A stretch of DNA of 64,000 bases from Fimbriimonadaceae bacterium (lineage in GTDB: Bacteria; Armatimonadota; Fimbriimonadia; Fimbriimonadales; Fimbriimonadaceae). Below, piece after piece: positions 8,932-63,230 of the stretch (positions are counted from its first letter, which is position 1; every line of letters starts with the position of its first letter). The position numbers were made by a program, and so were the translations under genes. A model generated the notes under the pieces. That model had not been told where the DNA came from. It did no database searches and saw only the letters and a program-made list of their open reading frames with translations. Location of the stretch: positions 685,362 through 749,361 of the forward strand of contig CP075364.1 in the NCBI GenBank assembly GCA_019454105.1, in the 5' to 3' direction.

Positions 8932-8992
8932 AGGCAACGGTCTGAAGGTCTTGAAAGAGTCCCGTCAACCTCCCGCTCCGAACCCTGCCAGA

Positions 8993-10137: not shown

Positions 10138-10144
10138 GAGGACG

Positions 10145-10219: not shown

Positions 10220-10457
10220 GGCCACTGTCCTGTTTCCCGCTGGGAGCCGCCCGTTCTGGTCGACAGGGACCAAGGCTGGGCGGCCCAAACCCCTTCTTTG
10301 CGGCGGCCCATGGCGGCTTCTTAACGATGTTTGACACCACTGCGCGGTGTGGCCATGGTTGGCCCGCCTTGGCGATGGCCCTGTGGTGCCCTGCGCCACT
10401 GCCTCCGACGCTCGGCGCATGCGTCCTACGTCGGGCAGTCGACGTCATAAAAGGTTG

Positions 10458-11219: not shown

Positions 11220-11331
11220 GAGGCCGGATTGTGCCGCCAGGCGGATGAGTCATGCCGTGTGAACGAGGCGTCGTATGGTTGCCGTGCGGCAGCCCGTTGG
11301 TCGCCACCGAGGCCGAATGATCGAGAGGCGC

Positions 11332-12090: not shown

Positions 12091-12265
12091 GGCTGTGTTT
12101 GTCTAGTGGGCATCGGCTCGTCCCTCACCCTCGCAAGTGGGGCCGGCGTCCGGGCACGACTTCCCAACCTCTCGGCCAAGCACTACGCCCAACTGCAAGG
12201 TCCGAAAGGGCCCGAACGGGAGCAAGCCTCAACGAACGGAACCGAGACGCTCCACAATCAGTCCC

Positions 12266-12403
12266 GTGAGCCACGATCCGCGCCGGCCGTCCCCCAAATC
12301 CAGCTGGAAGGCCTTCGTCTGGATCGTGCTCGTCCCTTTGGGCGTCATGTTCGTGGCCATAGGGGCTTACCTTGTCGTATACGTCTTGCGAGAGGGTGTC
12401 TGA
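12266..12403 (+). CDS. Small single-helix membrane protein
   Basis: Reading frame of 45 codons from GTG 12266 (VSHDPRRPSPKSS), with a basic N-terminus, one membrane helix (FVWIVLVPLGVMFVAIGAYLV) and a short tail. The amphipathic layout is typical of real small membrane proteins, and the frame ends 50 nt before the DUF4139 gene. No homologue recognised; start codon uncertain because a longer frame is open to 12137. Confidence 0.4.
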   Translation: MSHDPRRPSPKSSWKAFVWIVLVPLGVMFVAIGAYLVVYVLREGV

Positions 12404-12453
12404 CCGAATCGTTTCCCTTCTTCGAACGTCCGTGATCGTCGGAAGTACAAGCT

Positions 12454-25473: not shown

Positions 25474-26820
<1,347 letters not shown>

Positions 26821-40749: not shown

Positions 40750-40757
40750 CGAACCAC

Positions 40758-44139: not shown

Positions 44140-45512
44140 TCACTGAACTTGCACCAGGCTACGTTCTTCGTCGTGAGTGGCAAAGGTTGCCTCTTTCTGA
44201 GGGACTCATCCGTGATGTTCAGCCGGGCTTTGCCTGTGGCAACCACAATCGCGACGGTGATGGTCTCATCCATGTCCGGCCCTTCAATGTGAGCACGAAC
44301 GGAAACATGGACTTCTCGTCGGTCAAGTTCATCCCAAGAGCAGAAGCGCACAAACCAGAACGACTACTTCAACGAGATGACATAGTCTTCAACAACACGA
44401 ACAGTCCAGAGCTAGTCGGCAAGACCGCCCTATATCAAGAGCAGGACGAACGAGCGTTCTCGAATCACATGACGAGACTCCGGGTCAACCCCGACCGCCT
44501 GCGACCAGCATTCCTAGCGATGGCCCTCCACCAGCTCTGGCGCGAAGGCTACTTCGCAGACAAGTGTAACAACCACGTCTCCCAGGCGAGCATCAGCCGT
44601 TCAGTGCTGCTTGAGGCAGAGATTCCGATTCCGCCATTAGCCGATCAAGATTCTCTTGTTGATCAGGTTCGAGCTGCTCAAAGCAAACTTGACATTGCTC
44701 ATGATCGCCTCGCCACGATCCCTGCGCTCCTCAAGAAGTTCCGCCAATCTGTCCTCGCCACCGCCTGCTCCGGCCAGCTCACCGCCGACTGGCGGACGGC
44801 GAACAATGAGCGTGAGTCGGGCCACAAACTCGCTGCCAGGATGACCGCAGCCACTCCGGACAAGAAGCTCCGATCTGTTCCAAAGGAGCCGGACTTGGAA
44901 TTGCCGGCAACCTGGAAATGGGCAGCTATCGGTAACATTGCCGCGATTCGAGGCGGCATTCAAAAGCAGCCCCATCGTGCCCCGAAGTCGAACGCATACC
45001 CCTACCTCCGAGTGGCCAACGTTTTGCGAAATCGGCTCGACCTCAGAGATTTATCACTGTTCGAGCTTGCACCCGGCGAGCTGGAAACATATCGACTTGA
45101 GAGCGGAGACCTCTTGGTTGTCGAAGGGAACGGTAGCTTCAGCGAGATAGGCCGGGCCAGCATCTGGAGAGACGAAGTGCCGGATTGTGTCCATCAGAAC
45201 CACATCATAAGAGTGCGCTTCAATGGACTAGTCCCCGAGTTCGTCAACTGCTTCTGGAACTCTCCTATCGGCATCGAGCAAGTAACTGCAACGGCGGTCA
45301 CAACCAGCGGGCTCTTTTCTTTGAGCACCGGGAAGATCGCGAGTTTGATGATTCCGGTTCCCGGCAAAGACGAGCAGATCGAAATCGTCAGCCGAGTCGA
45401 GTCCCTCTTCGCTCTCGCCGACTCTATCGAATCTCGCCTCGCCGACGCTACCGCCCAAGTCGAGCGCACAACCCAAGCCATCCTCGCCAAGGCATTTCGA
45501 GGTGAGCTATGA
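44136..45512 (+). CDS. hsdS: Type I restriction specificity subunit
   Basis: Protein of 458 residues with two target-recognition domains, each followed by a conserved helix. TRD1 spans about 1-175 and ends in D-Q-V-R-A-A-Q-S-K-L-D and L-L-K-K-F-R-Q-S-V-L-A-T-A. TRD2 spans about 240-410 and ends in R-L-A-D-A-T-A-Q-V-E-R-T-T-Q-A-I-L-A-K-A. The two differ, so a bipartite asymmetric target is expected. Its stop overlaps the capV start as ATGA. Confidence 0.93.
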   Translation: MITELAPGYVLRREWQRLPLSEGLIRDVQPGFACGNHNRDGDGLIHVRPFNVSTNGNMDFSSVKFIPRAEAHKPERLLQRDDIVFNNTNSPELVGKTALYQEQDERAFSNHMTRLRVNPDRLRPAFLAMALHQLWREGYFADKCNNHVSQASISRSVLLEAEIPIPPLADQDSLVDQVRAAQSKLDIAHDRLATIPALLKKFRQSVLATACSGQLTADWRTANNERESGHKLAARMTAATPDKKLRSVPKEPDLELPATWKWAAIGNIAAIRGGIQKQPHRAPKSNAYPYLRVANVLRNRLDLRDLSLFELAPGELETYRLESGDLLVVEGNGSFSEIGRASIWRDEVPDCVHQNHIIRVRFNGLVPEFVNCFWNSPIGIEQVTATAVTTSGLFSLSTGKIASLMIPVPGKDEQIEIVSRVESLFALADSIESRLADATAQVERTTQAILAKAFRGEL

Positions 45513-46492
45513 AGCCAATGCGTATTCTGAGTTTGGATGGTGGAGGAATGAAGGGGGTGTTCGCTTGTGCATATCTCGCCACCTTGGAGTCCTTCTTCAA
45601 GGTCAATCTGACCCAGCATTTCAAACTAGTCGCTGGCACTTCGACCGGAGGAATTATCGCTCTAGGAATAGCCTCGCAAAAGAGCGCGGCAGAAGTCTTG
45701 AAGCTCTATCGTGAGCACGGGCGCGAAATCTTCCCAAATATGTCAGGTCCCAAGCAACTCTTGCGTCGGCTCCGATCAGGGCACGCTTATGAGCGCACTG
45801 GATTGGAGCGTGTTCTAAAAGTCACGTTCCAAAAGCCAGATTCGGACGAGCCTTTTAGAATGGAAGATGCTGCGACACGGCTCTGCATTCCAGCTGTGAA
45901 CGCGCGCGACTGCTCACCCCGAGTCTTCAAATCACACTTCAATGAGCCTCAGGTGGCACGCTTGACTCGCGATCTGAAGATCACGATGGCGGATGTCGCA
46001 CTCGCCACGGCCGCTGCGCCCTGGTATCTGCCTATCGCTAATGTGCAGGAGACAGACGCACGGTTCACATACTTGGATGGCGGGCTTTGGGCAAACAACC
46101 CCTCTGTCGTTGCTATAACCGAGGCGCTGGCGAATTACGTCGGCGGGGACAAGGAATTTGACCGTATTCAGCTTCTCTCGGTGGGGCTCCCTGGTCCGGC
46201 AGGATTTCGGAACGACGGCAAATACCTGCGTGGCATGAAATTCATCGACCAACTGTTGACCTACGCGATGGAGTCGTCCAAGGACGGCGCTCACTACACC
46301 GCGAAGTTCCTGTTGAGTGACCCGATCCACACGTACGTGAGGGTTCAGCCAGACGCATTGAATGAGGTGCAGTCGAAGCGCCTCGGTTTGGATTCTGCGA
46401 CCCGGGAAGCCATCGAAGAATTGACGATGATGGGGCAGCTCAAGGCGGAGCACGACAAGAATCTGCCGGAAATCATAGCTATTTTCACGTAG
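45509..46492 (+). CDS. capV: CBASS effector: patatin-like phospholipase
   Basis: Protein of 327 residues. Catalytic residues of the patatin dyad are in place: oxyanion D-G-G-G-M-K-G at 10-16, nucleophile S45 in G-T-S-T-G, and D190 in L-D-G-G-L-W. In CBASS the enzyme is switched on by a cyclic nucleotide and degrades membrane phospholipids, killing the infected cell. The start overlaps hsdS by 4 nt, which ties CBASS to the RM operon. The CD-NTase gene starts 28 nt later. Confidence 0.92.
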   Translation: MKPMRILSLDGGGMKGVFACAYLATLESFFKVNLTQHFKLVAGTSTGGIIALGIASQKSAAEVLKLYREHGREIFPNMSGPKQLLRRLRSGHAYERTGLERVLKVTFQKPDSDEPFRMEDAATRLCIPAVNARDCSPRVFKSHFNEPQVARLTRDLKITMADVALATAAAPWYLPIANVQETDARFTYLDGGLWANNPSVVAITEALANYVGGDKEFDRIQLLSVGLPGPAGFRNDGKYLRGMKFIDQLLTYAMESSKDGAHYTAKFLLSDPIHTYVRVQPDALNEVQSKRLGLDSATREAIEELTMMGQLKAEHDKNLPEIIAIFT

Positions 46493-46520
46493 ACGCGCGT
46501 CCAGGTATAATCACAACCAA

Positions 46521-47483
46521 ATGGCGAACAACCAAAAGCAATTTGAGGGATTTCTGGAGAACATCCAATTGATTGGTGATGACCTAGCTTCGCTGCGAAC
46601 ATCACGCGACGCAAATCGCGACCGGATCAAGAAGCACTGGAAGGACACCCTTGAAAGGGCCGTTCCCACGTTCGAGGAGCAAGGCTCATTTGAAATGGGC
46701 ACGGTCATTAGGCCGATCGAAGGCGACTATGACCTTGATGACGGCATGTATTTGAACTGTATCGGTGACGACCCGGAGGACTGGGAGTCGACGTCCACAA
46801 TCCAGGGTTGGGTTTGTGATGCGGTGAACGGAGCGACTCAAGGCGATCCGGAGAAGCGGAAGCGATGCGTTCGTATTCCGTACAAGGGTGGATATCACAT
46901 CGATGTGCCTTCTTACGGCGTCGATTCCTTCAACACCACTCGCGTCTATGAGAAAGGCAAGGAACCCACCGACTTCGATGAGAGCAACCCTGTTGCGCTC
47001 GTGGATTGGTTCAATGAACGCAAGCAGTCGCATTCCGATTTGCGGGATCTGATGAGGTTCTTCAAGGCTTGGCGCGACTACAAGAAGGGGCCGCTGGCGA
47101 AAATCAAATCGGTGACGATGACCATCTTGGTCGCTGAGCGAATTCAGTCGAATGATCGATACGACCAGGCGGTCGTCGATACAGCTCGGCATTGTGCCAA
47201 CCACATCCGTGGCGGGGGCTCTGTAGCGAAGCCTGTCGCTCCCGTTGAAGACTTGACTGCTTCGTGGACAGCAGACGACCGCACGAAGATTGCGGATGCT
47301 TTCGATGACCTTGCGGAGAAGGGCGAAGAGGCGATCGCTGCCGATACGATCCGTGCCGGAGCCTTGTTGTGGCAAGGGCAATTCGGACCGAGATATCCCG
47401 TTCCTGACGATGGTGCTGAAAAGGCTGCTGGTCCGAGCATTTTCGTGAAACGTGATATTCGTGAGTCTCAACCTTTCGCCTAA
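46521..47483 (+). CDS. CBASS CD-NTase (DncV/cGAS-like cyclic nucleotide synthase)
   Basis: Protein of 320 residues with the polymerase-beta-like active site: G55-S56, D71-x-D73 in D-Y-D-L-D-D-G, and third metal ligand D128 in Y-H-I-D-V-P. A helical C-terminal lobe follows and ends in Q-P-F-A. It should make a cyclic di- or trinucleotide after phage infection to activate CapV. The nucleotide product cannot be told from sequence. Its end overlaps the cap2 start, as expected if its C-terminus is conjugated by Cap2. Confidence 0.92.
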   Translation: MANNQKQFEGFLENIQLIGDDLASLRTSRDANRDRIKKHWKDTLERAVPTFEEQGSFEMGTVIRPIEGDYDLDDGMYLNCIGDDPEDWESTSTIQGWVCDAVNGATQGDPEKRKRCVRIPYKGGYHIDVPSYGVDSFNTTRVYEKGKEPTDFDESNPVALVDWFNERKQSHSDLRDLMRFFKAWRDYKKGPLAKIKSVTMTILVAERIQSNDRYDQAVVDTARHCANHIRGGGSVAKPVAPVEDLTASWTADDRTKIADAFDDLAEKGEEAIAADTIRAGALLWQGQFGPRYPVPDDGAEKAAGPSIFVKRDIRESQPFA

Positions 47484-49200
47484 TCTGCAGGAGGCGACCA
47501 TCGATCTGTATCCCGATGCTTGGACAAGATTCGCGTCAGCTCTTGAGGAGCGAGGGTTTCGTCGCGTGGATCATCCTGTCGGACGATGGGAGGGCGAGCT
47601 TATTGTCCGGTATAGCGATCCAGGTTCCGGGGTGGAACAAGAGAGAGTTTATCAACTTGCGATTGTACTTGATAAAGGCTTCCCCTTCAAGAAGCCGGAA
47701 GTTATTCCAATGTCTGAGCTTCCCGAGGGAGCAAGACATCGCGCACCAGTTGGTGGCACGGGAGCGTTGTGCCTATATTCAGATCGGGCAGAAGGCTGGC
47801 TACCGGAGTTCACGGCCGAAGATCTTCTAGAGCGGACAACCGACTGGTTTGTTCATCACCTTCGTGACGACTGGGGATTGGAGGACCGTCCCCCAGACCT
47901 TCACCTGTATTACAATCGAATAAACAACCGATACCTCGCCGTGACTGGTGATGACTGGAATCCCCCTGCCGGGGCAAGTGGGAGATTTGCCATACGCCAA
48001 GGACTCAGAACATTTCTGATGTCTAGCCCAACGGAGAAAGATCTGTCGCCCATTGCTTCACCGCCAGAAGAGTTATCCAGGAGCTTAGGCATGCAGAGTT
48101 CGGGCCTCTCAGCTGGAACTTGGTTTCGACTCAGGGCTGAGCCAACCCCGGCAGAGGCGCTGGGTGATGTACTCCGTGACATAGATGAAAAGTCGGGATC
48201 GACACCCGGCTTTGCTCGCAGCAAGCTCCGTTCTCTCGCAGGTTCGAAGCCTAGAAGAGAGTTTCGGACTATTCTTGCGCTAGGTTATCCTGGCGCGTCC
48301 GGGACAGAAGAATGGCTTTTTCTTGATGTCATTCTGCCAACAACACGCCGCAGGTCTGATCGATGGGAGAATCATTTAGAAGCAATTCGGGTTCGTGCAC
48401 TCGAAACTGCTCCGGCGAAGCCAGCCGACTTAGTTCGCAGGACAGCGCACAGTGAGGCACTTCTATCTGGAAAACATGCCCTCATCTTTGGATTGGGGGC
48501 GATTGGATCTTCGGTTGCACTACTTCTCGCAAAAGCCGGGATTGGCAAGATCACGTGTGTTGATGCCCAGCAACTACGCCCAGGCAACTGTATTCGTCAC
48601 ATGGCTGGGCTCAGGCTTTGCGGTTTGGACAAGGGAACTGCGGTAGCGGCCGTGGTCGGACAACATGCACCGTATTGCAACGTAAAGGCTTGCCCGGAGT
48701 CTTGGAATCCAGATGAGCTGACCGACATCATCGCAGAGGCCGACGTCGTTATCGACGCGACGGCTAATCACTCATTTGGCTTGCTACTCAATGAGCTTTG
48801 CATGCAAGGGAAAGTTGCTCTGGTTGGCGTCGCCACTTATCGCCGGGCATCAGTGGGCCGGGTTCGAGTTGTGCGCCCTGGACAAAGCGGTTGCATGGTC
48901 TGCTATCTTGGGCATTCGGACGATCCTGAATACCCACTCATTCCTCCTGGCGATGAGGGGGAATTTGTAGAGGCCGGATGCGGTGACCCAACCGTCGAAG
49001 CATCGGCAATTGACGTTGAATTTGTTTCGAACGTGGCCGTACAAGCGACAAGAAAGATGCTGACAGGTTCCCTGCCTGAGGGATCAGATGAATGTCTGGT
49101 GGTGATCACTCCGCTCGACGAGGCGGTCCATCCATTAAACTCGGAGGGAATTCACTGGTTCCGTCGTGATCGTATCGAAGGATGTGGAGCTTGCGGATGA
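47452..49200 (+). CDS. cap2: CBASS Cap2: fused E2-E1 ubiquitin-like conjugation enzyme
   Basis: Protein of 582 residues from GTG 47452 (GTG 47461 also possible). The N-terminal E2-like domain has a likely catalytic Cys107 in G-G-T-G-A-L-C-L-Y. A linker leads to an adenylation (ThiF/E1) domain with G-L-G-A-I-G-S-S near residue 345, R-P-G-N-C-I-R-H-M, and Cys residues C-M-V-C, G-C-G-D and C-G-A-C-G further on. Cap2 attaches the CD-NTase through its C-terminus to a target to raise signalling. Overlaps the CD-NTase gene by 32 nt and cap3 by 4 nt. Confidence 0.9.
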   Translation: MIFVSLNLSPNLQEATIDLYPDAWTRFASALEERGFRRVDHPVGRWEGELIVRYSDPGSGVEQERVYQLAIVLDKGFPFKKPEVIPMSELPEGARHRAPVGGTGALCLYSDRAEGWLPEFTAEDLLERTTDWFVHHLRDDWGLEDRPPDLHLYYNRINNRYLAVTGDDWNPPAGASGRFAIRQGLRTFLMSSPTEKDLSPIASPPEELSRSLGMQSSGLSAGTWFRLRAEPTPAEALGDVLRDIDEKSGSTPGFARSKLRSLAGSKPRREFRTILALGYPGASGTEEWLFLDVILPTTRRRSDRWENHLEAIRVRALETAPAKPADLVRRTAHSEALLSGKHALIFGLGAIGSSVALLLAKAGIGKITCVDAQQLRPGNCIRHMAGLRLCGLDKGTAVAAVVGQHAPYCNVKACPESWNPDELTDIIAEADVVIDATANHSFGLLLNELCMQGKVALVGVATYRRASVGRVRVVRPGQSGCMVCYLGHSDDPEYPLIPPGDEGEFVEAGCGDPTVEASAIDVEFVSNVAVQATRKMLTGSLPEGSDECLVVITPLDEAVHPLNSEGIHWFRRDRIEGCGACG

Positions 49201-49673
49201 CGGCAACAATCACAGAAGTGTGCATTTCTGCTCAAGCGGCTGAACTCATTCAGGTGGAGTCGAATTCGAAATGGCCCCACGAGACTGGCGGAATCGCTCT
49301 AGGAAGATTCGAAGGCAGCACGGTAAGAATTCACCAGGCTACCCCTCCCGGACCAAATGCGAAACATGGCTTAGCTAGTTTCGTTCGTGATGGGGACTTT
49401 GCTCAGCAGGAGCTAGAGAGGGTGTTTTCCGAGTCAACGGGTTCCGTTGATTACATCGGTGAATGGCACTCGCACACCCTTCACGTTGGGCCCAGCCCGC
49501 GAGACAGAAGGAGCATGGAATTCATAGCGAAGAGCTCACAATATAGTGCAGCGAATCCGGTCCTGCTCCTTGCTTTGCCCCGCGGGCTACTACGTGATCG
49601 CACGTACGAGATTCAAGCCTTTGTGTTGGTCGCATCAATGCTAGTTCAAGTGCCCGTCATCAAAGAGTCCTGA
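49197..49673 (+). CDS. cap3: CBASS Cap3: JAB/JAMM deconjugating protease
   Basis: Protein of 158 residues from ATG 49197, overlapping the cap2 stop. The complete JAMM zinc motif is present: E29 in H-E-T-G-G, then H91-S-H93, S100 and D103 (H-S-H-T-L-H-V-G-P-S-P-R-D). It reverses Cap2 conjugation. With capV, the CD-NTase and cap2 this makes a full type II CBASS operon of the kind known from Vibrio cholerae. It is the last gene of the nine-gene run. Confidence 0.92.
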   Translation: MTATITEVCISAQAAELIQVESNSKWPHETGGIALGRFEGSTVRIHQATPPGPNAKHGLASFVRDGDFAQQELERVFSESTGSVDYIGEWHSHTLHVGPSPRDRRSMEFIAKSSQYSAANPVLLLALPRGLLRDRTYEIQAFVLVASMLVQVPVIKES

Positions 49674-50452: not shown

Positions 50453-51631
50453 TCAACGAATAATCTGAGATTGTTCACTCGCTTCGCTCACCTCCGTATC
50501 CAAGCCATCGAGGACCTGTCGAATTTCTTGTCGATCCAGTTGGAGGAGACGGGCAAGCTGTCCTTCGCTGTAGAGTTCACCCTTTGCGGCTTCCCTAACC
50601 AGAAGCGCCAGTCTGTGCGGGAGCAGCCCCGCGGATCGAACGGCTACAAGATGCTTGGTTGCGTCATTTCCGATGACCTCTCGCGCCTGCTCATCAGTGA
50701 TACCGCCATTGTCTTGGAACCAAGACCAAGCCCCCTCCCGAACGAGGCCGAGTTGCTCTAGCCTTCGGACCATGGCTTCTCGGGAAACGAAAAAGTTGGC
50801 AGCCAGCAAAATCACATGACGGCGAGTTAGATCGCGCTGCCCAGCGGTCAATTCAACAAATCGTTGCTTGACGGTGATCGCTGGCATCAAAAGGGCAGCT
50901 GCGAAAGCGTTGGCATACTTATCATCGCGGGAAGTGAAGCGGTCGCCGATCGAGACAACCGACGGATTGCGTCGGTTACTAGCAAGGTGTCCCCACTCAT
51001 GAGCGGCAGTCATTGGCAACCGGCTTGGCTGATTCGCGTTAAGAAGAACGCAAGCTCCCGCAACCTCACTAAATGCGAACAGTCCAGAAATGTTCGAAGC
51101 CAGTGGTCGGACGTATACGCGGACGCCAAGTTCAGATTCCAATAAACCGACGACATCGGAAATGGGCCCCATCCCAAGTCCGAGCCAGCGACGATGCTCG
51201 GTCGCATCGTGGTCGGCTTGCTGGGTTACATCTCCCGGAAGTAGAGGTCGCTCAGGCGGGTAATTCCGATGCCGAACAACTCCGAGTGCGTTTTCCAGTT
51301 CGCATTCAGCTGCAACAAGCACATTTAGAAGCTGGCTGGCCGACTCAACCTCATCCGCGTCGGCTTTTAATTGCTTCCGAAACTGGGGCACTAGGTCAAG
51401 ATGGACAGACTCGCGGCGCAGGAGGGCGTTTACGCTCAATCCATATCGCGCCGCCAACTTTTGAAGTTCCTCTAACCGCACCTTGCGTTCGCCTTTCTCA
51501 ATGGCGATCAGAGTCGTCCTCACGGCTCCGATGAGCTGGGCTGCCTCGGCTTGCGTCACTTTAGCCCTGTCCCTTGCCACGCGTAGTCGCTCCCCAAGCT
51601 CAATATTCGAGATTCCGAGTGGATACTCCAT
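50453..51631 (-). CDS. XRE regulator fused to ImmA/IrrE zinc peptidase
   Basis: Protein of 392 residues from ATG 51631 (GGAGG 8 nt before). The XRE helix-turn-helix lies at 12-65 (L-R-V-A-R-D-R-A-K-V-T-Q-A-E-A-A-Q-L-I-G). The ImmA/IrrE (COG2856) domain has H211-E-W-G-H215, followed by F-A-A-A-L-L-M-P. Such fusions serve as antitoxins or as stress-sensing proteases that cleave a repressor. Its first base is the last base of the QueC-like stop (TAATG), so the genes are coupled. TGTCAG sites at 53.5 kb are the likely operator. Confidence 0.9.
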   Translation of the reverse strand: MEYPLGISNIELGERLRVARDRAKVTQAEAAQLIGAVRTTLIAIEKGERKVRLEELQKLAARYGLSVNALLRRESVHLDLVPQFRKQLKADADEVESASQLLNVLVAAECELENALGVVRHRNYPPERPLLPGDVTQQADHDATEHRRWLGLGMGPISDVVGLLESELGVRVYVRPLASNISGLFAFSEVAGACVLLNANQPSRLPMTAAHEWGHLASNRRNPSVVSIGDRFTSRDDKYANAFAAALLMPAITVKQRFVELTAGQRDLTRRHVILLAANFFVSREAMVRRLEQLGLVREGAWSWFQDNGGITDEQAREVIGNDATKHLVAVRSAGLLPHRLALLVREAAKGELYSEGQLARLLQLDRQEIRQVLDGLDTEVSEASEQSQIIR

Positions 51632-52938
51632 TAGCTCGTTCCTCCTACCCAATGCCGGATGAAAGAAGTCTCACCTAGAGAGCCCACAAACTCGGCCCAC
51701 TCCTTGGCATGGCGGTCTATGAGGTCGAACAACTGAGCTCGAGCTTCATCGAATGGGATCGAAGTCACCAGGGCGACACTTGCTGCATGTCTGCTGATCG
51801 ACGCTTCGCCAAGCCACTCTCGGTTGAAGTGATCAAGTTGCTGAACTGCCCCGATCGCGTAGTGCCTAAGCGCATTGGTGACCCTGAAACCTGGTGGTGC
51901 GGCCTCTGGAAAACCCATGGCATGCAGGTTTTCGAAGGCATACGTTTCAACTGGTTCTTTAAGACCGGCTGAATGAAAACTCTGACGACGGAGGAGGCAA
52001 GCTGCGCAGACACCGCATTGAAGCCGTTTGCCGTTGACTGAACACCATCGAGAGTCCTGCCAACACGATCTCGTGCCTTCCCAAGTCGAGGCAGAACCCA
52101 AAGCCATGAGCGCACGGAGCGTCTCGCCCTTGGTACTCCACATTCGAGGGAACACATACTCAACTCTGTGCCCAAAAACTGATTCAATGATCTTGGCAAC
52201 CTTCGCCGAAAACATCGGGTGATTCCGGTAGTCAGGGTAACCCTGGAGGGTTGCGGTTAACACGGGTCCGAAGATTCCCTGTCCACTCTCCGGCACAACG
52301 GCCTGCCTGGCATCAACGAGATATGCCGCGATTCCGCCGAACATGGCAAATCGAAATCCGCGTGAACGAGCCGATGATTCAACCGGTCGTCTGCCAAGTT
52401 TGACGCTATACGGAATACCGGTAAAGGGAATTGGGCGCCCTTGGTTTCGCTCTCCACGCGCTGCAGCGCTTCCAACTCGGACACGAAGGATAGCGCCAGG
52501 GTTGGGGGCGCCTTCGAGGGCAACAACGGCCCTAGAATCCAGCCCGTCACTGTAAGCCATGACCTTGCGCGTCCCAGAAGACCCCAAGTCTAGTAGCTCT
52601 TGTGGCTTGGGTGGCGGAGCTCCTAACCGAGCAGCAAACTCAAAGGTCCAATAGTCACCGGTCAACAGCCTTAGCGCGTCGTTTAGGGCCCCCGAGACGT
52701 TCACGCCTGTCCATAGCTCTGGTTCGTAAAGAGGAACTCTGATGCGGAGGTCTCTGCGCCAGGTGTAGGCTGGTCGTCGAATAACTCGATCCGCGTAATC
52801 GACGGCGGCCATGACCGTCAGTGCATCAACGACCGAAGTCTCTCTTCGAGCAAAACCGTACGTTTCAAGAGCATCTAGGTTGAACCTGATGTGATTGTCT
52901 GGGTCGAAGACTAGAACGTCGGTATTGCTAGATTTCAT
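51631..52938 (-). CDS. QueC-like PP-loop ATPase / synthase
   Basis: Protein of 435 residues. A PP-loop lies at 130-135 (A-Y-S-D-G-L-D-S, the first Gly of SGGxDS changed to Asp). A four-Cys zinc site is formed by C292 or C299 and C308-G-V-C311-A-A-C314, as in 7-cyano-7-deazaguanine synthase. It is about twice as long as QueC, with an extra N-terminal 120 residues. No other queuosine genes are near, so a role in defence (as in QatC or type IV CBASS QueC-like proteins) is more likely than in queuosine synthesis. The chemistry is unproven. Confidence 0.8.
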   Translation of the reverse strand: MKSSNTDVLVFDPDNHIRFNLDALETYGFARRETSVVDALTVMAAVDYADRVIRRPAYTWRRDLRIRVPLYEPELWTGVNVSGALNDALRLLTGDYWTFEFAARLGAPPPKPQELLDLGSSGTRKVMAYSDGLDSRAVVALEGAPNPGAILRVRVGSAAARGERNQGRPIPFTGIPYSVKLGRRPVESSARSRGFRFAMFGGIAAYLVDARQAVVPESGQGIFGPVLTATLQGYPDYRNHPMFSAKVAKIIESVFGHRVEYVFPRMWSTKGETLRALMALGSASTWEGTRSCWQDSRWCSVNGKRLQCGVCAACLLRRQSFHSAGLKEPVETYAFENLHAMGFPEAAPPGFRVTNALRHYAIGAVQQLDHFNREWLGEASISRHAASVALVTSIPFDEARAQLFDLIDRHAKEWAEFVGSLGETSFIRHWVGGTS

Positions 52939-54663: not shown

Positions 54664-57600
54664 CTACCTTTGCAGGGTTATCGTCGAAGCCAGCGTGACC
54701 GTGTTGGCTGCCCCGCCCAAGGGTTGATAAAGTCGAGGCGTGCGAATGTCGCCGCCCGCATGGTGTCGGTATAGCTCTGGAACTCGTTCACCGGTCCACT
54801 TACCTAGCTCATCAACCGCGATCCGACCGTCACGGTTTGTATCTGCCCGTCCAGAAAGCCCCTCAATTACCGCTTGAGTGAGAAATCCGCGCGTGAGCCT
54901 AAGTCCGCCCGCGTTTACCACTTCACTCTCCCCAGGTTGCGTTGCTGCCAAAACATATGCCTTGGCATTGTCTTGAAGGGACTGGACAAATCCTGAGCCC
55001 GACCAAAGATCCTCAAAGCCTCTACCGAGAGTCCCGGATTTGCAGGCGTCCAGAACAAAAACCTGCTTTCTAGCCCGAATCCACGTTGCCCAGAGCGCCA
55101 GATCAGAAGAACCCAGCCTGCCCGGTGCGGAACCAGGGCCCTCTGGTGCCGCCACGATGAATGCCTCGGCTTTTGACCTTCCCGCATCCTGCCGAACAAA
55201 AGTTGTCCGTTTGCCGTGCCCGGCGAAGTAAAAGATGAACGTATCTTCCGCTGCAGTTTGATCGCCAATTCGCCTGACAGCCTCATTTATCGCCCTGTGC
55301 GTAGCAGCAGTGCCCACCAATAGATCGGATTTGACGCTATTGAAACTACTGGTGCCCACCTGCTTCAAGGTACGAACGATTGCACTCGCATCTGACTCGG
55401 CGAATGAAATCCCTTCACCATTCACACCGACAGAAATGACATAGAGATTGGGCTTTCGGCCAACCATGTTGAAAACGGAGATAGTCGCCCGGTCTGATTC
55501 AGCACCTGCCGTTGAGAAGGCACTTATAGAGAAGTCATTCGTCTCCATCGGGATTGGAACTCGGAGGCGCACCACCCTTTCAGAGTTGGAGGGAACTAGT
55601 ATTCGTTCAGCAAGCACAACAGTATTGTTTGAACGCACTAGGATTCGATCGCAATCTGACTGAGTGCTACGAACATGAACATCAAGTTGTGCGTCTGATT
55701 GAGTCTGTGCGAGCACTCTAACTTTAAGAATCTTCGGTCGGGTTAGAGCAAAATTCGCGAGGTCTGATGCTTGAGTTACACTCTTGCCCCCAAGGACGAG
55801 ATCTACAAGGCTGGGTACGAGAAATCCGTGATCGGCAAGGGTCTCAAGTGGAACAGAGTAAGCACCACTTGCAAATCGCGCTGTTGCGAGCAAACCTACC
55901 GTTCCCGTGAAGTGGCCATCAGGAGTCGTAGCGAGCCACTGCCCGCTCTTGCCAAGTCGCATCCTCAGTACCTCCCTTCCCTGGGACAAGTTCCAAAACC
56001 TCGCGGTCATGTCCTTGCCTCCCGTTGCAATAAGGCCACTTTTCAAGTCCTTCCATATCATGAAGCAGGGGCCCCCGTGACCACCCATAACAATCTCCTT
56101 CCCACTGTTGATCCTGACCGCATGGACCTTGCCACGAGTGCTTCCGGTAAAGAACCATTCCCCGTCTTCGGAAAAGTTTGCCGCCCAGGGCCACCACGCT
56201 GGATATTGCTCATACGCTCGATCATCAGTTGCTATCTGCTGCAGCTTGACATTGCCAGACTTGACTTCTACCACGGTCGAGGCACCGGTGACATCGCTGA
56301 TTCCCAAAAGAAGTCCCTTCGGGTCGAAGGCCATCGCTGGCGTCAGCCACCTCATGGCAAGCCTGTTTGGTGAAGCGCTCGGATTGGCTGAGGTTCGTGC
56401 GCTCTCTCGCCATTCGGGCGTCGCAGAGAGCAGATCATCGCCCGGATTGGCCAGAAATTCCTGAGAAGAGAATAGCGGAGGAATGACGGTCCTCAGTAGT
56501 GAGTTTGTCCTAGCATCGTAGATCTTAATCTCTCCTCCGCTAGCAACAGCTACCAACAAGTTGTCGGAGAACGCCACTGATTCAACTGGAGATCGAAGTT
56601 CGAAAATCAAGCGCCTCGCTCTCAAGGACCAGACTCGAACCATGGAATCCGAAGCAGCGAACAAATAGAGCCCATCTTGACTTAGTTGCAGGAACTGTCT
56701 TCCCGTACCTGGCATCGGAAGCCGCTGTCGAGATTCTCCGCTTGGTGACCCTACGTTTATGAAACCCTGATCTTGTCGCCAGAACGCAAAGAGTTTGCCA
56801 TTCTGATCGGAAGCAACGGCAACCGGTGTTGTGTCTTTCTGCCATGTCATTTGCCCGAGAATGGCCCGCAAGTCGACACGTGTACTGTATGACCCATTAC
56901 TTGAACTCCCTGTTAAACCACTTACAATCACGCCCATTCGAAACAAGATTCTCTGCGTGTCGCCAATAGAGTTCGTGTAAGGGAGAGAAGTCGGTGAAGG
57001 GCCTAAGCCAGATTCCACTGCCGATACATCTCCGGATGTCGAAATCTTACGAACTCTCCCAAATTTATCAAGGATGAGCATCCCGGAAGCTGTATAGAAG
57101 CCAGCGCTCCCCTCATTCCAACGCTCACTATGCATCAGTTCTCCATCGAGTGAGCGTAGTTCTAACAGCTTTCCATAGGTAACAAGGAGTATACCCGTTT
57201 GGCCCATAAAAAGTTCTGTATCGCTTTGCGAGTCGGCCGACCGTTCTACTTCAACAAGAGTTTGACCTTTCGAATTCGAGAGAAAGATACGCCCATCCCT
57301 TGTTCCCACCGCCACGTTGGCAGTAGTCTTCAGAGGCAGAATAGCTGTCAAGGCCACGGACATTGCGGCTGCTGGTTCGCCGCTCTTTGAGTCGAACGAG
57401 TACAGCATTCTGTCTGTGGCAACCAAAACTCGACTACCGTCAGGCGTAAATGCAAGCAAGGAATGCGAAGTGCCTTCTGGCACCTCGATTGCCTTGAAAC
57501 GTTCACTAGCAGAACCAAGGTCGTGAAGGCGGAGGATCAGAGACTTGCCACCCCTGATCTGCAAACTTGCTAGGGCCTTACCCTGTCCGTCGAACGCGAG

Positions 57601-58734
57601 CTTTATGAATGGCCCATCCCCCTTCACTTCGAGTAGTCGCTTCGATTTGGTCGCTTCCCAGACAGCTAGTGAGCAGTATTCTGTGGCTGCTGCAACATAG
57701 GTGCCAGTAGGATCATAAGCCAAGTCATATACAGACATTTGTTCTCCAAACATCTGCTGGAGTTCGAATTGGGATTGACTATCAGCCCGTCTTTGCGGAA
57801 ATGATCTCGATGGAAACTCCAAGGAGCTCTGACCCATTTGCGATGTGTCGCAAAGCGTGACTGACGGAGGAACAGGATTGTCAACGAGTGGGTAACCCGC
57901 TGGCAGGAGTCCCTGCCTTCGGAGCGCCATTGCGAAAGTCGCGGTTCGCGGTGAAGTGGCTACATTGGTCAATTGAAGCATTGAATATGTGACTGGCTTG
58001 ATCTTGCCGGTCTCAATATCGCGCATTGCTGGCGCTGCTACAGACTTCTCGACGAGTGTGTCTAAATCGTATATCAAAAGAGACCAAGGTCGGACCGCGA
58101 TCAGGCTGCGCCCGGCATCGCCGACGACGAGTTGCTGGATCCTTCCTTCGAGGCTCAGTTTGCCGCTAAGAACGTCTGGCAGCGACTCAGGAGTAGCGGG
58201 GCGTCGCGTTGCAACAGGTTGCCACGCCTCGTCAAAAGCAACCAGTTCTCCGTTTGTGGTACCGCAGATGAGCTTCGCACCCAAGGCGTTCTGAGGGAGA
58301 AACGCGATCGAAGTGAATGAGTCACCCTTCCAAGTGAGGTCAGCCAGCCATCGGCGAAGTCTGAGATCCCACAGCTTAACATTCCCGTTAATATCCCGGC
58401 TCGCAAGCAAATTGCCAGAATCGTCGCAAGCTAGCTCATCGACTTGCACGAAGTGTGGCGAGGGAGACGCAAGTCGGAAAGAGGGCAGTTCTCTAACAGG
58501 TGTGAACACGCCAGTGTTTGACTCTGCGCCTGTCCTATAGAAAGAGAGGACGCCGATGGTGAGCAATAGTAGGGTCAGGGCCGTAGCCCCAAAGAAATAA
58601 GACCGTCTTGAATCCCTCTTCGCTGACTCTGGAGGATGTCCCACGTTCGGATCGTCACTCGCATTGACGCCCTGAATCAGGACGACGTGACAGCCTTGCT
58701 TGCGCAGCTTCTTTCGCCTAGACTGTCTACCCAC
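54664..58734 (-). CDS. WD40-repeat protein with C-terminal caspase (peptidase C14) domain and EF-hand
   Basis: Protein of 1356 residues. One membrane helix lies at about 48-66 after a basic N-terminus. About 1000 residues of WD40-type blades follow (e.g. L-A-S-R-D-I-N-G-N-V-K-L-W-D and I-A-T-G-G-K-D-M-T-A-R-F-W-N). The caspase domain starts near 1090, with His in Y-F-A-G-H-G-K (about 1173) and Cys in V-L-D-A-C-K-S-G (about 1231). A full EF-hand loop D-T-N-R-D-G-R-I-A-V-D-E follows near 1298. It is a large metacaspase-like protease likely activated by signals at the envelope. It overlaps the upstream gene by 8 nt. Confidence 0.9.
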   Translation of the reverse strand: MGRQSRRKKLRKQGCHVVLIQGVNASDDPNVGHPPESAKRDSRRSYFFGATALTLLLLTIGVLSFYRTGAESNTGVFTPVRELPSFRLASPSPHFVQVDELACDDSGNLLASRDINGNVKLWDLRLRRWLADLTWKGDSFTSIAFLPQNALGAKLICGTTNGELVAFDEAWQPVATRRPATPESLPDVLSGKLSLEGRIQQLVVGDAGRSLIAVRPWSLLIYDLDTLVEKSVAAPAMRDIETGKIKPVTYSMLQLTNVATSPRTATFAMALRRQGLLPAGYPLVDNPVPPSVTLCDTSQMGQSSLEFPSRSFPQRRADSQSQFELQQMFGEQMSVYDLAYDPTGTYVAAATEYCSLAVWEATKSKRLLEVKGDGPFIKLAFDGQGKALASLQIRGGKSLILRLHDLGSASERFKAIEVPEGTSHSLLAFTPDGSRVLVATDRMLYSFDSKSGEPAAAMSVALTAILPLKTTANVAVGTRDGRIFLSNSKGQTLVEVERSADSQSDTELFMGQTGILLVTYGKLLELRSLDGELMHSERWNEGSAGFYTASGMLILDKFGRVRKISTSGDVSAVESGLGPSPTSLPYTNSIGDTQRILFRMGVIVSGLTGSSSNGSYSTRVDLRAILGQMTWQKDTTPVAVASDQNGKLFAFWRQDQGFINVGSPSGESRQRLPMPGTGRQFLQLSQDGLYLFAASDSMVRVWSLRARRLIFELRSPVESVAFSDNLLVAVASGGEIKIYDARTNSLLRTVIPPLFSSQEFLANPGDDLLSATPEWRESARTSANPSASPNRLAMRWLTPAMAFDPKGLLLGISDVTGASTVVEVKSGNVKLQQIATDDRAYEQYPAWWPWAANFSEDGEWFFTGSTRGKVHAVRINSGKEIVMGGHGGPCFMIWKDLKSGLIATGGKDMTARFWNLSQGREVLRMRLGKSGQWLATTPDGHFTGTVGLLATARFASGAYSVPLETLADHGFLVPSLVDLVLGGKSVTQASDLANFALTRPKILKVRVLAQTQSDAQLDVHVRSTQSDCDRILVRSNNTVVLAERILVPSNSERVVRLRVPIPMETNDFSISAFSTAGAESDRATISVFNMVGRKPNLYVISVGVNGEGISFAESDASAIVRTLKQVGTSSFNSVKSDLLVGTAATHRAINEAVRRIGDQTAAEDTFIFYFAGHGKRTTFVRQDAGRSKAEAFIVAAPEGPGSAPGRLGSSDLALWATWIRARKQVFVLDACKSGTLGRGFEDLWSGSGFVQSLQDNAKAYVLAATQPGESEVVNAGGLRLTRGFLTQAVIEGLSGRADTNRDGRIAVDELGKWTGERVPELYRHHAGGDIRTPRLYQPLGGAANTVTLASTITLQR

Positions 58735-59695
58735 GTCTCTGCCTCAATGCTGCTTCGGTGTCCTGCCGTAACTGTCGAGCGGCTTCCAACACCTTGACAT
58801 CGCCACTCTGATCATCAAGCACCTTGTCGAGAATGCGGATCGCCTCTGGCAACCTGTCCAACTCTATTAGAAGCGAGGCCCTCTTAGTGTCAGAGAGCCC
58901 AGCGTTCAATCCACTCGCGAAGCTGATAGCCTCTTGGCTGGGCACGTAAAACGTCGCATCGGCCTCAAGGATCTCCTGATCAACTTCGTACCGAAGTGTC
59001 CAGGTGTACCTGCTCTGGTTGAGAAGTTTCTGCGAAACTGTCCAGCTTCTAGCCCGAACATCTGTCGTACTTGCAATGCGCAAGTCGTCCTTTGACAGCA
59101 CGACCTCGATTACTCGCACCTTGGCATCAAGAGCGCTCCATCGCAGAGTCGGCTGAGTGCTGTCAACCGAAGTCCTCTTAGGGCTCATATCCACATGACG
59201 GATAGGTTCACTACGCCCCTCGACCGAGAAGATTGCAAGAGCACGTTCGGCCGAAGCTATGGCCTCAATGTCAGGAGGTGAGGGGCTGCGAAGATTGTTT
59301 ACGAAGATCACACCAATTGTGATCACGGCCACTGCGCTAATAGCCACGTAAGCGAGTCGCCATTGAACCTTGACACGACTCCTATCGTCTGCTCTTCCGA
59401 GAGAAGTAGCATGTGAGTTGTCAATAGGCTGAATTGCAACACCTTCTTCCAACCCCGGCAAGGCGAAGAAGTTTGGATCTCTTGCCTCGATCTCATCGAC
59501 CCTGGCAGCGTCTGAGCGCATCCGGGCCACCTCACCCTTCCAGGGCTTCCGCGAGAGGACGAAGGCGATCCACATCCGCTTGAAGCGGTTCCAGTGACGA
59601 GTGCTCCCACATACATAGGTGAAAAGGTCGTCGTCGCTGATCTGTTGTCCCTGTCCGAGGCTCTCACTGATGGTGTAGTCGAGCGGTTGCTTCAT
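58727..59695 (-). CDS. Single-pass membrane protein, anti-sigma-like, between sigma factor and caspase genes
   Basis: Protein of 322 residues. The N-terminal 80 residues (D-Y-T-I-S-E-S-L-G-Q-G-Q-Q-I-S, C-G-S-T-R-H-W-N-R-F-K-R) lie in the cytosol; one membrane helix spans about 113-135 (L-A-Y-V-A-I-S-A-V-A-V-I-T-I-G-V). The outer part has a beta-sandwich-like region and a TPR-like helical end. Position after a sigma-like gene and the one-helix topology suggest an anti-sigma or signal adaptor. Overlaps both neighbours by 4-8 nt. Its first 190 bp are duplicated at about 60750-60940. Confidence 0.7.
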   Translation of the reverse strand: MKQPLDYTISESLGQGQQISDDDLFTYVCGSTRHWNRFKRMWIAFVLSRKPWKGEVARMRSDAARVDEIEARDPNFFALPGLEEGVAIQPIDNSHATSLGRADDRSRVKVQWRLAYVAISAVAVITIGVIFVNNLRSPSPPDIEAIASAERALAIFSVEGRSEPIRHVDMSPKRTSVDSTQPTLRWSALDAKVRVIEVVLSKDDLRIASTTDVRARSWTVSQKLLNQSRYTWTLRYEVDQEILEADATFYVPSQEAISFASGLNAGLSDTKRASLLIELDRLPEAIRILDKVLDDQSGDVKVLEAARQLRQDTEAALRQRRG

Positions 59696-60567
59696 CGGCC
59701 ACCTCGTCTTGCGTTTGCTGCTTTCCGCAATCGGTTCTTTCTACTCTTTAAAGTGCCTACAGAACACCCAAGTAGTGATGCTGCTTCTTTCAGCGTTTTG
59801 ATTGGCAACGAAAGGTAATAACACTCCTGATCGAGACGGTTGGAAACCGACGCCCCCAATCCTTCAAGCAACTCCAAGACAGTGGCGGCTGGCAGCTCTA
59901 CGACGTATGAGATTTGTCCAGGAGTCAGCGAGTCCACATCCGTGAGGACCAGGCTGAACCAAACATCGAGCCAGGAAGCATCCCTTATCACGGTTCTAAC
60001 TTGTGTTCGCGCAATTCGCACCGCAACTGCGTCCTGAAGGCTATCCACAGGAAGACAAACTACGCCTGCGTCTTCGATTATGCTGTCGACAGTTTCATTT
60101 CCCGGAATGACGTATTTTCGACCTTGGCGCAACTTGTCTTTGCATGCGTCCGCTACACAGGCGCGGAAATAGACGGCTTTGATATATGATGGATTACGTC
60201 TAAGAAGAAGCAAGTAAGTGTCAGTCCATACATCTCGAATACCCTCATCGTGATCGAAGCCAAATTGGCTAGCAATGATAGACGTTATTCTCTTAACGGC
60301 GGGGTGGGACAATAGGGCTGAGTAGAACAGTTGACGTTCTACTGGATCCAGGGTCTGAAGGTTCACGCGGCTAAACTTCAGAAGATCGTTTGCCTTAACA
60401 CTGACGAGGAACGAGTGGAACTCCCTAGACAAGTCTAAGGGCAGGTCCTGTTTGTCATCGACAGGAGCCTGACTAAGTTCTTCAGCTTGAAGTCGTTGCC
60501 TCATGGTTTCCAACGATCTGCTACGGCCTGGTCTCCCGGTTGCTTTGCACTGCGTCACACTTCCCAT
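59692..60567 (-). CDS. Putative sigma-70-like (ECF-type) factor
   Basis: Protein of up to 291 residues; ATG 60567 or, with a better ribosome site (GGAAACC), ATG 60504. Helical, with a sigma region 2-like stretch (G-F-D-H-D-E-G-I-R-D-V-W-T-D-T-Y-L-L-L-L-R-R-N) and a C-terminal helix-turn-helix of region 4 type (L-K-E-A-A-S-L-L-G-C-S-V-G-T-L-K-S-R-K-N-R-L-R). ECF factors are usually about 190 residues, so this is longer and divergent. It overlaps the membrane-protein gene by 4 nt, and the trio is likely one operon. Confidence 0.6.
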   Translation of the reverse strand: MGSVTQCKATGRPGRSRSLETMRQRLQAEELSQAPVDDKQDLPLDLSREFHSFLVSVKANDLLKFSRVNLQTLDPVERQLFYSALLSHPAVKRITSIIASQFGFDHDEGIRDVWTDTYLLLLRRNPSYIKAVYFRACVADACKDKLRQGRKYVIPGNETVDSIIEDAGVVCLPVDSLQDAVAVRIARTQVRTVIRDASWLDVWFSLVLTDVDSLTPGQISYVVELPAATVLELLEGLGASVSNRLDQECYYLSLPIKTLKEAASLLGCSVGTLKSRKNRLRKAANARRGGR

Positions 60568-60660: not shown

Positions 60661-60683
60661 CTCCCCGTCAATCAGACGGGGAG
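60661..60683 (-). terminator. Terminator overlapping the stop codon of the short duplicate gene
   Basis: CTCCCCGTC, loop AATCA, GACGGGGAG, 9-bp perfect stem; on the minus strand it is followed by GTATTTTAAG. The stop codon of the gene at 60668 lies inside the stem. Confidence 0.75.
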
Positions 60684-60988
60684 GGAATGCCCACCCTGAG
60701 GCCCTGAACGCCCTCAAGTGAGAAGAAGTTTGGATCTCTTGCCTCTATCGCATCGACCCTGGCAGCGTCTGAGCGCATCCGCGCCACCTCACCTTTCCAG
60801 GGCTTCCGTGAGAGGACGAAGGCGATCCACATCCGCTTGAAGCGGTTCCAGTGACGAGTGCTCCCACATACGTAGGTGAAAAGGTCGTCGTCGCTGATCT
60901 GTTGTCCCTGTCCGAGGCTCTCACTGATGGTGTAGTCTGTGGCATTGGACTCGGCAAGGGCCGTTAGAAGCGATTTGATGAATCTCAT
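60668..60988 (-). CDS. Short protein sharing the N-terminal domain of the caspase-operon membrane protein
   Basis: Protein of 106 residues from ATG 60988 with a strong AGGAGG 5 nt upstream. Residues 18-95 are nearly identical to residues 5-80 of the membrane protein at 58727 (D-Y-T-I-S-E-S-L-G-Q-G-Q-Q-I-S to E-A-R-D-P-N-F-F), and the DNA match is about as good, so the copy is recent or maintained by gene conversion. It lacks the membrane helix. A free cytosolic copy of the domain may compete with the membrane-bound one for the sigma factor (inference). Confidence 0.75.
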   Translation of the reverse strand: MRFIKSLLTALAESNATDYTISESLGQGQQISDDDLFTYVCGSTRHWNRFKRMWIAFVLSRKPWKGEVARMRSDAARVDAIEARDPNFFSLEGVQGLRVGIPSPSD

Positions 60989-61204: not shown

Positions 61205-61969
61205 TCAATCGATGACGGAGCCGTCGAGACTGGCCGGATTGAACCGCGCTTTGGTCCGTTCGAAGTAGAGTTGCCAGAAGCGGCGGGCGAGGATGATACG
61301 AGGCGCACTCAGTTCTTTTCCCTTGCCCGCCGCCAAGCCACCGAAGCTGACGCTCACCTTCGAGAGGCTCGGGACCAACCCTTGTCGCTCCAACTCCGCT
61401 ACCGTTTTGTCCAGTGTTTCCAGCGTCAACTTGTGCGAAAACAAGTCAAGCTCTGGCGATTGTTGTATGCCGTCGCTAAAGACGACGAGTTCCTTGTTAG
61501 TCAGGTCGCGGATGCCGTCGCGTTGGAACAAGTTGGCTGCTATCGACAGCGTCAGGACGATATTGGTGTCGGAGGCCGCATCGGCTCGGTGCTTCTGCGC
61601 CTCCATGATAGCTTCGTCGTGCTGACGGAAGAGCCCTTGGAGCTCGGCGTCGGCGGCGTCTGCAATGCGGGCGCGTTCCCGGTCGAAGTCTTCGCTGTAC
61701 TGGGACAGCGCCCCCTTGCGCCTCGGCATCTCAAAGGAGATCGGGTATTCGGGAACGCGGTTGGCTCCGATCAGATCGACGTAGACCCGTGTGCCCTCCA
61801 TCTGCATGAGCTTCTGCCGAAACTCCCGCCGATATTGCTCACGCTGGGCAATGCAGCTCGCTGACGAGTCGAAGAGGAAGAGCGCTACGTTGTCTGGCTT
61901 CGCTTCGTCAGGTCCGCAACCGGATAACAGCAATGCGAGCGGCACGATCACGGAGATAAGTCGTCTCAT
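61205..61969 (-). CDS. Lipoprotein with VWA-like fold
   Basis: Protein of 254 residues. The lipobox is L-L-L-S-G-C (Cys about 18). The mature part has features of a von Willebrand A domain: L-F-L-F-D-S-S-A-S in place of the MIDAS D-x-S-x-S, and N-K-E-L-V-V-F-S-D-G-I-Q-Q-S near residue 170. It is likely anchored to a membrane outside the cytoplasm. It overlaps the following gene by 4 nt, so the two are a pair. Ligand unknown. Confidence 0.7.
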   Translation of the reverse strand: MRRLISVIVPLALLLSGCGPDEAKPDNVALFLFDSSASCIAQREQYRREFRQKLMQMEGTRVYVDLIGANRVPEYPISFEMPRRKGALSQYSEDFDRERARIADAADAELQGLFRQHDEAIMEAQKHRADAASDTNIVLTLSIAANLFQRDGIRDLTNKELVVFSDGIQQSPELDLFSHKLTLETLDKTVAELERQGLVPSLSKVSVSFGGLAAGKGKELSAPRIILARRFWQLYFERTKARFNPASLDGSVID

Positions 61970-63051
61970 CGTCCGGTCTCCTTCGACCGCGATGCTCCGG
62001 AGTGCTTTGCGATCGACTTGGCTGCTTGGCCGTTCAGGTGGACAACGGGACCCAACAGAGGTTCCGTCAATCGGTGAGGTGGCTCCGGGTAAGCGACCAA
62101 GATTTCGGGCAACTGCGGCTCGATCATGCGGAGGTCTCGCGGCTTCACACCGTCAGTCCGGTGTTTCGTGTTCTCCCCGACGTAGGCCGCCTGAATCTGG
62201 GCGGCAATCGAGCGCCAACGATCCGCCTTCTCTCTCGCACGCTGCCAAGCCTTTTCTCGGTCGGTGTAGGCGTGGCTTTCCTTGTCGTGAGCTTTGGTCC
62301 GCTTCCGACGCTGCTCTTCAAGCGGGTCGCAGCTCGCGTAGGCCGTGAGCATTCCGGCCAGGAAAGCTCCGGCTTGGAAGGCCAGGAACATCCAGAGGAA
62401 TCGAGAGCGATCCTCGGACTCAGTCTGCTTCGGTTGAATCGAAGCTTGATTGATGACGCTCCGGCTCGACGAGACGACAGGCGTCGGTTTGGCGGCGATG
62501 TACTTGGCCCGGGCCCCAGCGATCCCCCACGAGACAGCGATGGCGATCACGACGGCGGCGACCATCAGCGACTTGTCCGTCGTGTTCTTGTCTGGCTTCT
62601 TCAATGTTCGACCGAGGAAGTGGGCGCAGACCACGATCGTAGTGCCGACCAACATCGTCGCCAAGAAGTTGAGGATGGGCCGATCTTCGAACGAGCGAAA
62701 CGCCAACTCATTGATGGCGAACTCGCCGGCCATGAGGAGGACGAGGAAGAAGTAGTGGAGCCAGAGCGGAAACACGGGCTTCTTACCGCGTTCCTCCCAA
62801 GCCCGCTCAACTTCTTCTAGTTTCTGCTGCTCCAGGTCGGTGCGGCTGATACCGCTCTGAATGCGTTTGGTCAATCTCCGGTCCTTCTTTTCGAAGGTTT
62901 CCGCTTCGTCTTGCAGGTGAGTCTCGGCGACTCCCTGGACTTCACCAAGATATCCGGAAGGCGGTTCGCCGGGAGCCGGAAAGCCGAACGACGCGTCCTT
63001 ACGGCCGTGCCGCTTGGCGTTCCAGCGATCGTAGAAGTATACGTGTGGCAT
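61966..63051 (-). CDS. Four-helix membrane protein paired with the VWA-like lipoprotein
   Basis: Protein of 361 residues from ATG 63051 (AGGAGAACC upstream). The N-terminal 100 residues are soluble with a predicted coiled coil (E-E-V-E-R-A-W-E-E-R). Four hydrophobic helices follow at about 105-125, 135-155, 175-195 and 235-255. The C-terminal 100 residues are cytosolic, basic and helical. No homologue recognised. The stop overlaps the start of the lipoprotein gene, so the two proteins probably form one complex. Confidence 0.6.
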   Translation of the reverse strand: MPHVYFYDRWNAKRHGRKDASFGFPAPGEPPSGYLGEVQGVAETHLQDEAETFEKKDRRLTKRIQSGISRTDLEQQKLEEVERAWEERGKKPVFPLWLHYFFLVLLMAGEFAINELAFRSFEDRPILNFLATMLVGTTIVVCAHFLGRTLKKPDKNTTDKSLMVAAVVIAIAVSWGIAGARAKYIAAKPTPVVSSSRSVINQASIQPKQTESEDRSRFLWMFLAFQAGAFLAGMLTAYASCDPLEEQRRKRTKAHDKESHAYTDREKAWQRAREKADRWRSIAAQIQAAYVGENTKHRTDGVKPRDLRMIEPQLPEILVAYPEPPHRLTEPLLGPVVHLNGQAAKSIAKHSGASRSKETGR

Positions 63052-63230
63052 ATGGTTCTCCTTGATTAGTTCTTCTGTGGGTTCGCCTCGGTCGGCTCTA
63101 AGTCCGATGCCTGCGCCGCCCACATAGCCATAAAGGAGGTCATGACCGTCTGGGTTGGCGATCTAGTAGAAATACTCCGGAGTTACAATGAGGAAGTGGA
63201 AGATCAGAGCTGGATCACGACGGTCTGACC

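Follow-up and report, generated by a model that had tools for sequence, protein, structure and literature searches.

RseA and DegS are an example of regulated proteolysis, and DegS is a PDZ-serine protease. Several systems that combine sigma factors with proteases have been described. A 2012 report described metacaspase operons that contain sigma-70 genes, four of them in Myxococcus and others in further genera (PMC3501461). ECF54 sigma factors have CHAT, subtilase and carboxypeptidase genes as neighbours (PMC8999054). In two further systems a protease cuts a sigma inhibitor: Craspase of type III-E CRISPR, which consists of Csx29, Csx30 and CASP-sigma (PMC10028731), and CalpL/CalpT/CalpS (PMC11417357). 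EACC2-caspase systems have an ECF sigma gene and a DUF1822 TPR gene alongside (PMC8195603).

The window analysed in this study is a stretch of 64 kb out of a 2.74-Mb single-contig genome. The ORF list contains three genes that run from 60567 to 54664 on the minus strand, where all of the features given below for these genes and for P0004 are also located. They encode a sigma-like protein, P0001 (59692..60567, 291 aa), a one-helix membrane protein and probable anti-sigma factor, P0002 (58727..59695, 322 aa), and a WD40-caspase, P0003 (54664..58734, 1356 aa). An earlier note on this DNA had described three genes overlapping by a few bases. We confirmed the ORFs, their lengths and the overlaps, which are 4 bases between P0001 and P0002 and 8 bases between P0002 and P0003. 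It seems about an even bet to us that the three genes form a sigma/anti-sigma/protease module, in which an envelope caspase would cut the anti-sigma factor from outside and so free P0001.

The locus resembles RseA/DegS in having a putative one-helix anti-sigma factor whose extracytoplasmic part could be cleaved by a protease of the envelope. It differs in its candidate for the site-1 protease, a WD40-caspase rather than a PDZ-serine protease. The earlier note had not recognised the combination of genes, but sigma-70 genes in metacaspase operons have been known since 2012 (PMC3501461). In Myxococcus xanthus, Anaeromyxobacter, Haliangium, Sorangium, Ralstonia and Fibrobacter, a sigma-70 gene likewise lies in the operon of a caspase homologue, and the description, on which our comparison is based, names no membrane partner there (PMC3501461). 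ECF54 sigma genes have clan CD (CHAT) or subtilase proteases nearby, like the related Armatimonadota loci presented below; compared by description, they have no anti-sigma factor, whereas a one-helix partner follows the sigma gene here (PMC8999054). Craspase also unites a caspase-like protease, a sigma inhibitor and an ECF sigma factor in one locus, but its protease is an RNA-guided TPR-CHAT protein, while P0003 combines WD40 with a C14 caspase and the putative inhibitor is a membrane protein (PMC10028731). Neither Cas7-11 nor any other Cas protein was found among the 10 proteins of the locus scanned with PADLOC. CalpL/CalpT/CalpS is similarly a trio of protease, anti-sigma factor and ECF sigma factor in a defence setting, although its protease is of the Lon type and switched on by cA4, and its anti-sigma factor is soluble (PMC11417357). 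In contrast to the EACC2-caspase systems, P0002 has no match to DUF1822 (PMC8195603). New here are the pairing of a WD40-caspase with a membrane partner that belongs to a defined family, the probable export of the proteases and a duplicated anti-sigma-like domain.

The earlier note had described P0003 as a protease of 1356 residues with WD40 blades, a caspase dyad and an EF-hand loop, and we recovered each of these parts. Pfam matched WD40 (E=6.7e-17) and Peptidase_C14 (24.9 bits, cut-off 21.4), and the EACC1-associated caspase model of NCBIfam, NF047832, scored 42.5 bits, below its cut-off of 140. Near the N-terminus, a basic stretch precedes a hydrophobic segment (residues 47-65, 58540..58596, hydropathy 2.09), which is a predicted export anchor. 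The beta-propeller region covers about residues 95-930 (55945..58452), according to Pfam WD40 and related propeller models. The caspase domain (54682..55455) contains the catalytic dyad of His1173 (55216-55218) and Cys1231 (55042-55044), both of which were invariant across 40 aligned relatives. A structure model of this part, built with 40 sequences, reached a pLDDT of 82 and resembled metacaspase 9 (Z 21.5, rmsd 3.2, 233 residues). Profile search from the caspase part found metacaspase-4 (E=2.1e-13), and its matches in the PDB were metacaspases and the bacterial caspase homologue GSU0716. The modelled caspase part can be assigned to the metacaspase fold with solid confidence. The EF-hand-like loop (DTNRDGRIAVDE, residues 1298-1309, 54808..54843) was recognised by its sequence motif. 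Such a loop was present at the equivalent place in 9 of 112 other caspases, which rules out EF-hand calcium control as a trait of the family. As a separate observation, an adjacent pair of caspases (~1320-1430 aa and ~325 aa) recurs in six relatives from the same family.

P0001 resembles sigma factors in its region 4. The Pfam model Sigma70_r4_2 scored 20.3 bits (E=4.2e-4), under its cut-off of 25.7 bits, and the sigma models of NCBIfam gave weak matches on the same stretch. A region 4 profile built from ECF sigma factors scored 11.5 bits, a value equalled by none of 5000 shuffles, and hhalign gave E=1.1e-8 across 26 columns. The matching helix-turn-helix, of the region 4 type, comprises residues 258-282 (TLKEAASLLGCSVGTLKSRKNRLRK, 59722..59796). 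Two other Pfam models, HTH_28 and HTH_17, also had weak scores on P0001. No sequence signal of region 2 was found, as 378 of 5000 shuffles scored equally well against the ECF region 2 profile. A region 2 that had been read by eye at residues 75-150 gained no support from this shuffle test. The structure model of P0001 alone (pLDDT 39) was too poor for a structure search. Therefore, the DNA-binding end of P0001 is sigma-like and the remainder is unproven. Of the divergent sigma-like protein in the earlier note, region 4 was supported and region 2 was undetectable; the match to sigma-factor profiles, which had been set beforehand as a test, was likewise obtained for region 4, below the Pfam cut-off, and not for region 2. 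Searches of 61 related genomes, of 113 from the class, and of plasmids and viral contigs gave no close relative of P0001. Profile comparison also gave no support for P0001 as a member of the extended sigma-like family described next.

This family was found by way of caspase-gene neighbourhoods in the phylum, which led to two loci, L037 and L046, then to a search with a sigma-like protein and finally to a profile of its partners. At L037, a sigma factor (Sigma70_r2, E=2.8e-11), a zinc-finger one-helix protein and a WD40-caspase occur together. At L046, a sigma-like gene accompanies a caspase and a one-helix protein whose FN3-like domain matches P0002. When the sigma-like protein of L046 was searched through the 291 genomes of the phylum, matches were obtained in 32 genomes. 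In their neighbourhoods, the sigma-like gene is directly followed by a one-helix partner and has CHAT, caspase or subtilase genes nearby. The survey of caspase genes beside sigma-like genes that the earlier note had named as a check thus revealed sigma, one-helix partner and caspase together in four other Armatimonadota genomes (L037, L046, L171 and L178). Sigma genes near caspases in three further loci (L067, L107 and L021) were rejected, being part of other units. The pair of sigma-like gene and partner is also present in Acidobacteriota, often beside CHAT proteases. In a profile-to-profile comparison with ECF sigma factors, the sigma-like family matched at E=3e-9, with regions 2 and 4 in order and a long insert between them. 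We also noted that the ~350-aa proteins of this family, at L187, L186, L180, L190 and other loci of Armatimonadota and Acidobacteriota, are almost invisible to Pfam and adjoin CHAT-TPR genes. Among 49 sigma-like/partner loci from the two phyla, the partner was adjacent in 38, and about half of the loci were without a nearby protease gene. An export-type N-terminal segment was predicted in 26 of the 30 CHAT or caspase proteases beside these genes, a count in which single cases may be wrong because start codons were assigned mechanically. For this reason, we place the proteases on the outer side of the membrane, together with the FN3-TPR part of the partner.

The earlier note had ascribed an anti-sigma-like topology to P0002, which agrees with our predictions. 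Hydropathy indicated one hydrophobic helix (residues 114-132, 59300..59356), and the charge bias around it (+3 before and -1 after) predicted that the N-terminus is inside. The N-terminal domain (residues 6-77, 59465..59680) is anti-sigma-like and is copy 1 of a 216-nt repeat; in alignments, its position and its motif DDDLFTYVCG correspond to the zf-HC2-type domain found in the partner family. The predicted extracytoplasmic part has an FN3/Ig-like domain (residues 168-258, 58922..59194; profile 27.5 bits), which is common to the partner family, and then a TPR-like end. Pfam and NCBIfam gave no convincing match for P0002. However, when 10,595 ORFs were searched with a profile of 17 one-helix partners, taken from behind sigma-like genes with CHAT or caspase neighbours, P0002 was recovered at E=1.1e-6 and the one-helix protein of L037 at E=5.8e-6. 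Residues 170-299 aligned to the family with E=3.7e-7 in hhalign, with the FN3-like and TPR parts joined in order. The zf-HC2 anti-sigma zinc finger (HxxxCxxC) was matched in 12 of 19 aligned members of the family and had no match in P0002. The caspase-linked partners at L046, L171 and L178 are without it as well, whereas the L037 partner is caspase-linked yet has kept it, and most CHAT-linked members have it. No close relatives of P0002 were found in 61 related genomes, 291 genomes of the phylum, plasmids or viral contigs, and the hits at two loci (L004 and L009) fell on other proteins by chance. Judged by its sequence, P0002 is probably an anti-sigma factor with one transmembrane helix and without a zinc finger.

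A second copy of the anti-sigma-like domain is encoded by P0004, a stand-alone ORF of 106 aa (60668..60988) without a transmembrane helix. It sits before the sigma-like gene, with an AAGGAGG ribosome site ahead of its ATG, and repeats residues 6-77 of P0002 over 216 nt with 97% identity. In the whole genome, this repeat has only two copies. Five of the six differences between them are synonymous, whereas ~21% of random single changes would be (P about 0.002 if the changes are independent and neutral). The excess suggests that each copy has been retained as protein. A diversity-generating retroelement was dropped as the source of the repeat because most of the differences are synonymous and both copies belong to an N-terminal domain. 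The simplest reading is that P0004 may act as a soluble anti-sigma domain; more plainly, it could be the product of a recent partial duplication. A pattern scan found a terminator-like hairpin of 10 bp at the 3′ end of P0004 (60660..60684; CCTCCCCGTC-TGATT-GACGGGGAGG, then the T-rich tail TATTTTAAG), although such patterns overall were not in excess (9 observed versus 9.2 in shuffles). Upstream of P0004, at 61205-63123, we also observed two overlapping genes, one encoding a lipoprotein of 254 aa that matches VWA weakly and the other a membrane protein of 385 aa.

The three genes lie in a stretch of low GC content. At 22 kb of the window, GC drops from ~0.64 to ~0.55, and the low-GC stretch covers 22000-64000 and ends ~13 kb past the window (1-13000 of the adjoining sequence, L245). 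An integrase gene adjoins tRNA-Lys (25474-25549), followed by a type IV coupling-protein-like gene (28387-29751), a serine recombinase (32801-34378) and a type I restriction locus (38044-45512), in which genes for a TIR-domain protein and for RhuM separate hsdM from hsdS. Then come a type II CBASS-like cluster (45509-49673) of patatin, DncV-like nucleotidyltransferase, E2-E1 fusion and JAB protease, and an RmrA-like HTH-M78 gene overlapping a QatC-like gene (50453-52938). The 19 kb following the window were searched for a target-site copy of the tRNA-Lys end, and none of more than 15 bases was present. The GC drop, the integrase at tRNA-Lys and the defence genes imply that the operon is cargo of a mobile defence island. 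In this setting, the operon may have an immune role. The earlier note mentioned neither this island nor the second anti-sigma-like copy and the hydrophobic anchor of P0003.

This location bears on a different explanation, in which the caspase is the output. P0001 and P0002 would sense stress and control the operon, and P0003 would cut cell proteins, leading to arrest or death, for example under phage attack. The restriction, CBASS-like, RmrA-like and QatC-like neighbours on the island are in its favour, and so are the shared direction and the overlaps of the three genes. However, neither P0001 nor P0002 belongs to any PADLOC system, and predicted export of the protease is ill-suited to cytoplasmic targets. 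In the Acidobacteriota loci, moreover, the CHAT gene is convergent and outside the operon, which means that co-transcription is not the general rule. We regard the caspase as output as possible but rather doubtful. Somewhat less probable still is that P0001 is no sigma factor but a helix-turn-helix regulator of the ordinary kind, tethered to the membrane by P0002. Support is indeed limited to the helix-turn-helix of region 4, and HTH_28 and HTH_17 are also weak scorers; its top matches, though, are the sigma region 4 models, the P0002 family otherwise follows sigma-like genes, and the operon at L037 has a clear sigma factor.

It could also be that the protease is a neighbour without a functional tie, as caspase and sigma genes are both common and may meet by chance. 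Caspase genes occur in 121 of the 291 genomes of the phylum. A survey of ~85,000 genomes gave the 72 caspase loci with the greatest similarity to P0003, and of these only one (L095, the same place as L037) had the sigma/partner pair. On the other hand, the genes in the window overlap, and CHAT or caspase genes were found within 4.5 kb of 23 of the 49 sigma-like/partner loci, against a chance expectation below 1% by our own arithmetic, which takes CHAT as about one gene per ~3-Mb genome. The sigma/partner pair is therefore strongly tied to a protease, the tie is weak when taken from the side of caspases in general, and we think a chance meeting very improbable.

Compared with these explanations, the sigma/anti-sigma/protease module is favoured in its site-1 form because the proteases and the C-terminal half of the partner are predicted to share the outer side. 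In this model, P0002 would use its N-terminal domain to retain P0001 on the inner side of the membrane and would expose its FN3-TPR part outside; P0003 would be anchored in the same membrane, with its propeller and protease outside. A cue sensed by the propeller of P0003 or the FN3-TPR part of P0002 would lead the caspase to make the site-1 cut in P0002, after which a membrane protease would complete the release. An M50 site-2 protease gene is present in the genome, as in nearly all bacteria. The freed P0001 would switch on its genes, perhaps including this operon, and P0004 could serve as a soluble brake. The module is supported by the family of P0002, which consists of one-helix proteins directly after sigma-like genes and includes many with the zf-HC2 finger, by the ECF match of the sigma-like family and by the CHAT or caspase genes near its loci. 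Against it are the undetectable region 2 of P0001, the lack of a match between P0001 and the extended sigma-like family, the missing zinc finger of P0002 and the many loci, about half, that have no protease gene close by. In addition, the published protease release by Craspase and CalpL is cytoplasmic (PMC10028731, PMC11417357). The link between an envelope signal and regulated proteolysis suggested in the earlier note was strengthened by co-occurrence and topology (the four genomes, the Acidobacteriota CHAT loci and the export-type segments), while the sigma identity was only partly borne out. A fuller version appears decidedly improbable as a whole. In it, the caspase would be an envelope site-1 protease with a propeller as sensor, the separately encoded anti-sigma copy would be a soluble brake, and a mobile island would carry the module, which would serve as an immune alarm.

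Pfam hardly covers the sigma-like/partner family, so that annotation easily misses its link to proteases. To our knowledge, the functions of bacterial caspases are mostly unknown. A caspase beside a putative membrane anti-sigma factor has a concrete candidate for its substrate, and transcription would be a simple readout. If the module model is true, the cleavage of a single protein at the cell surface may switch on genes.
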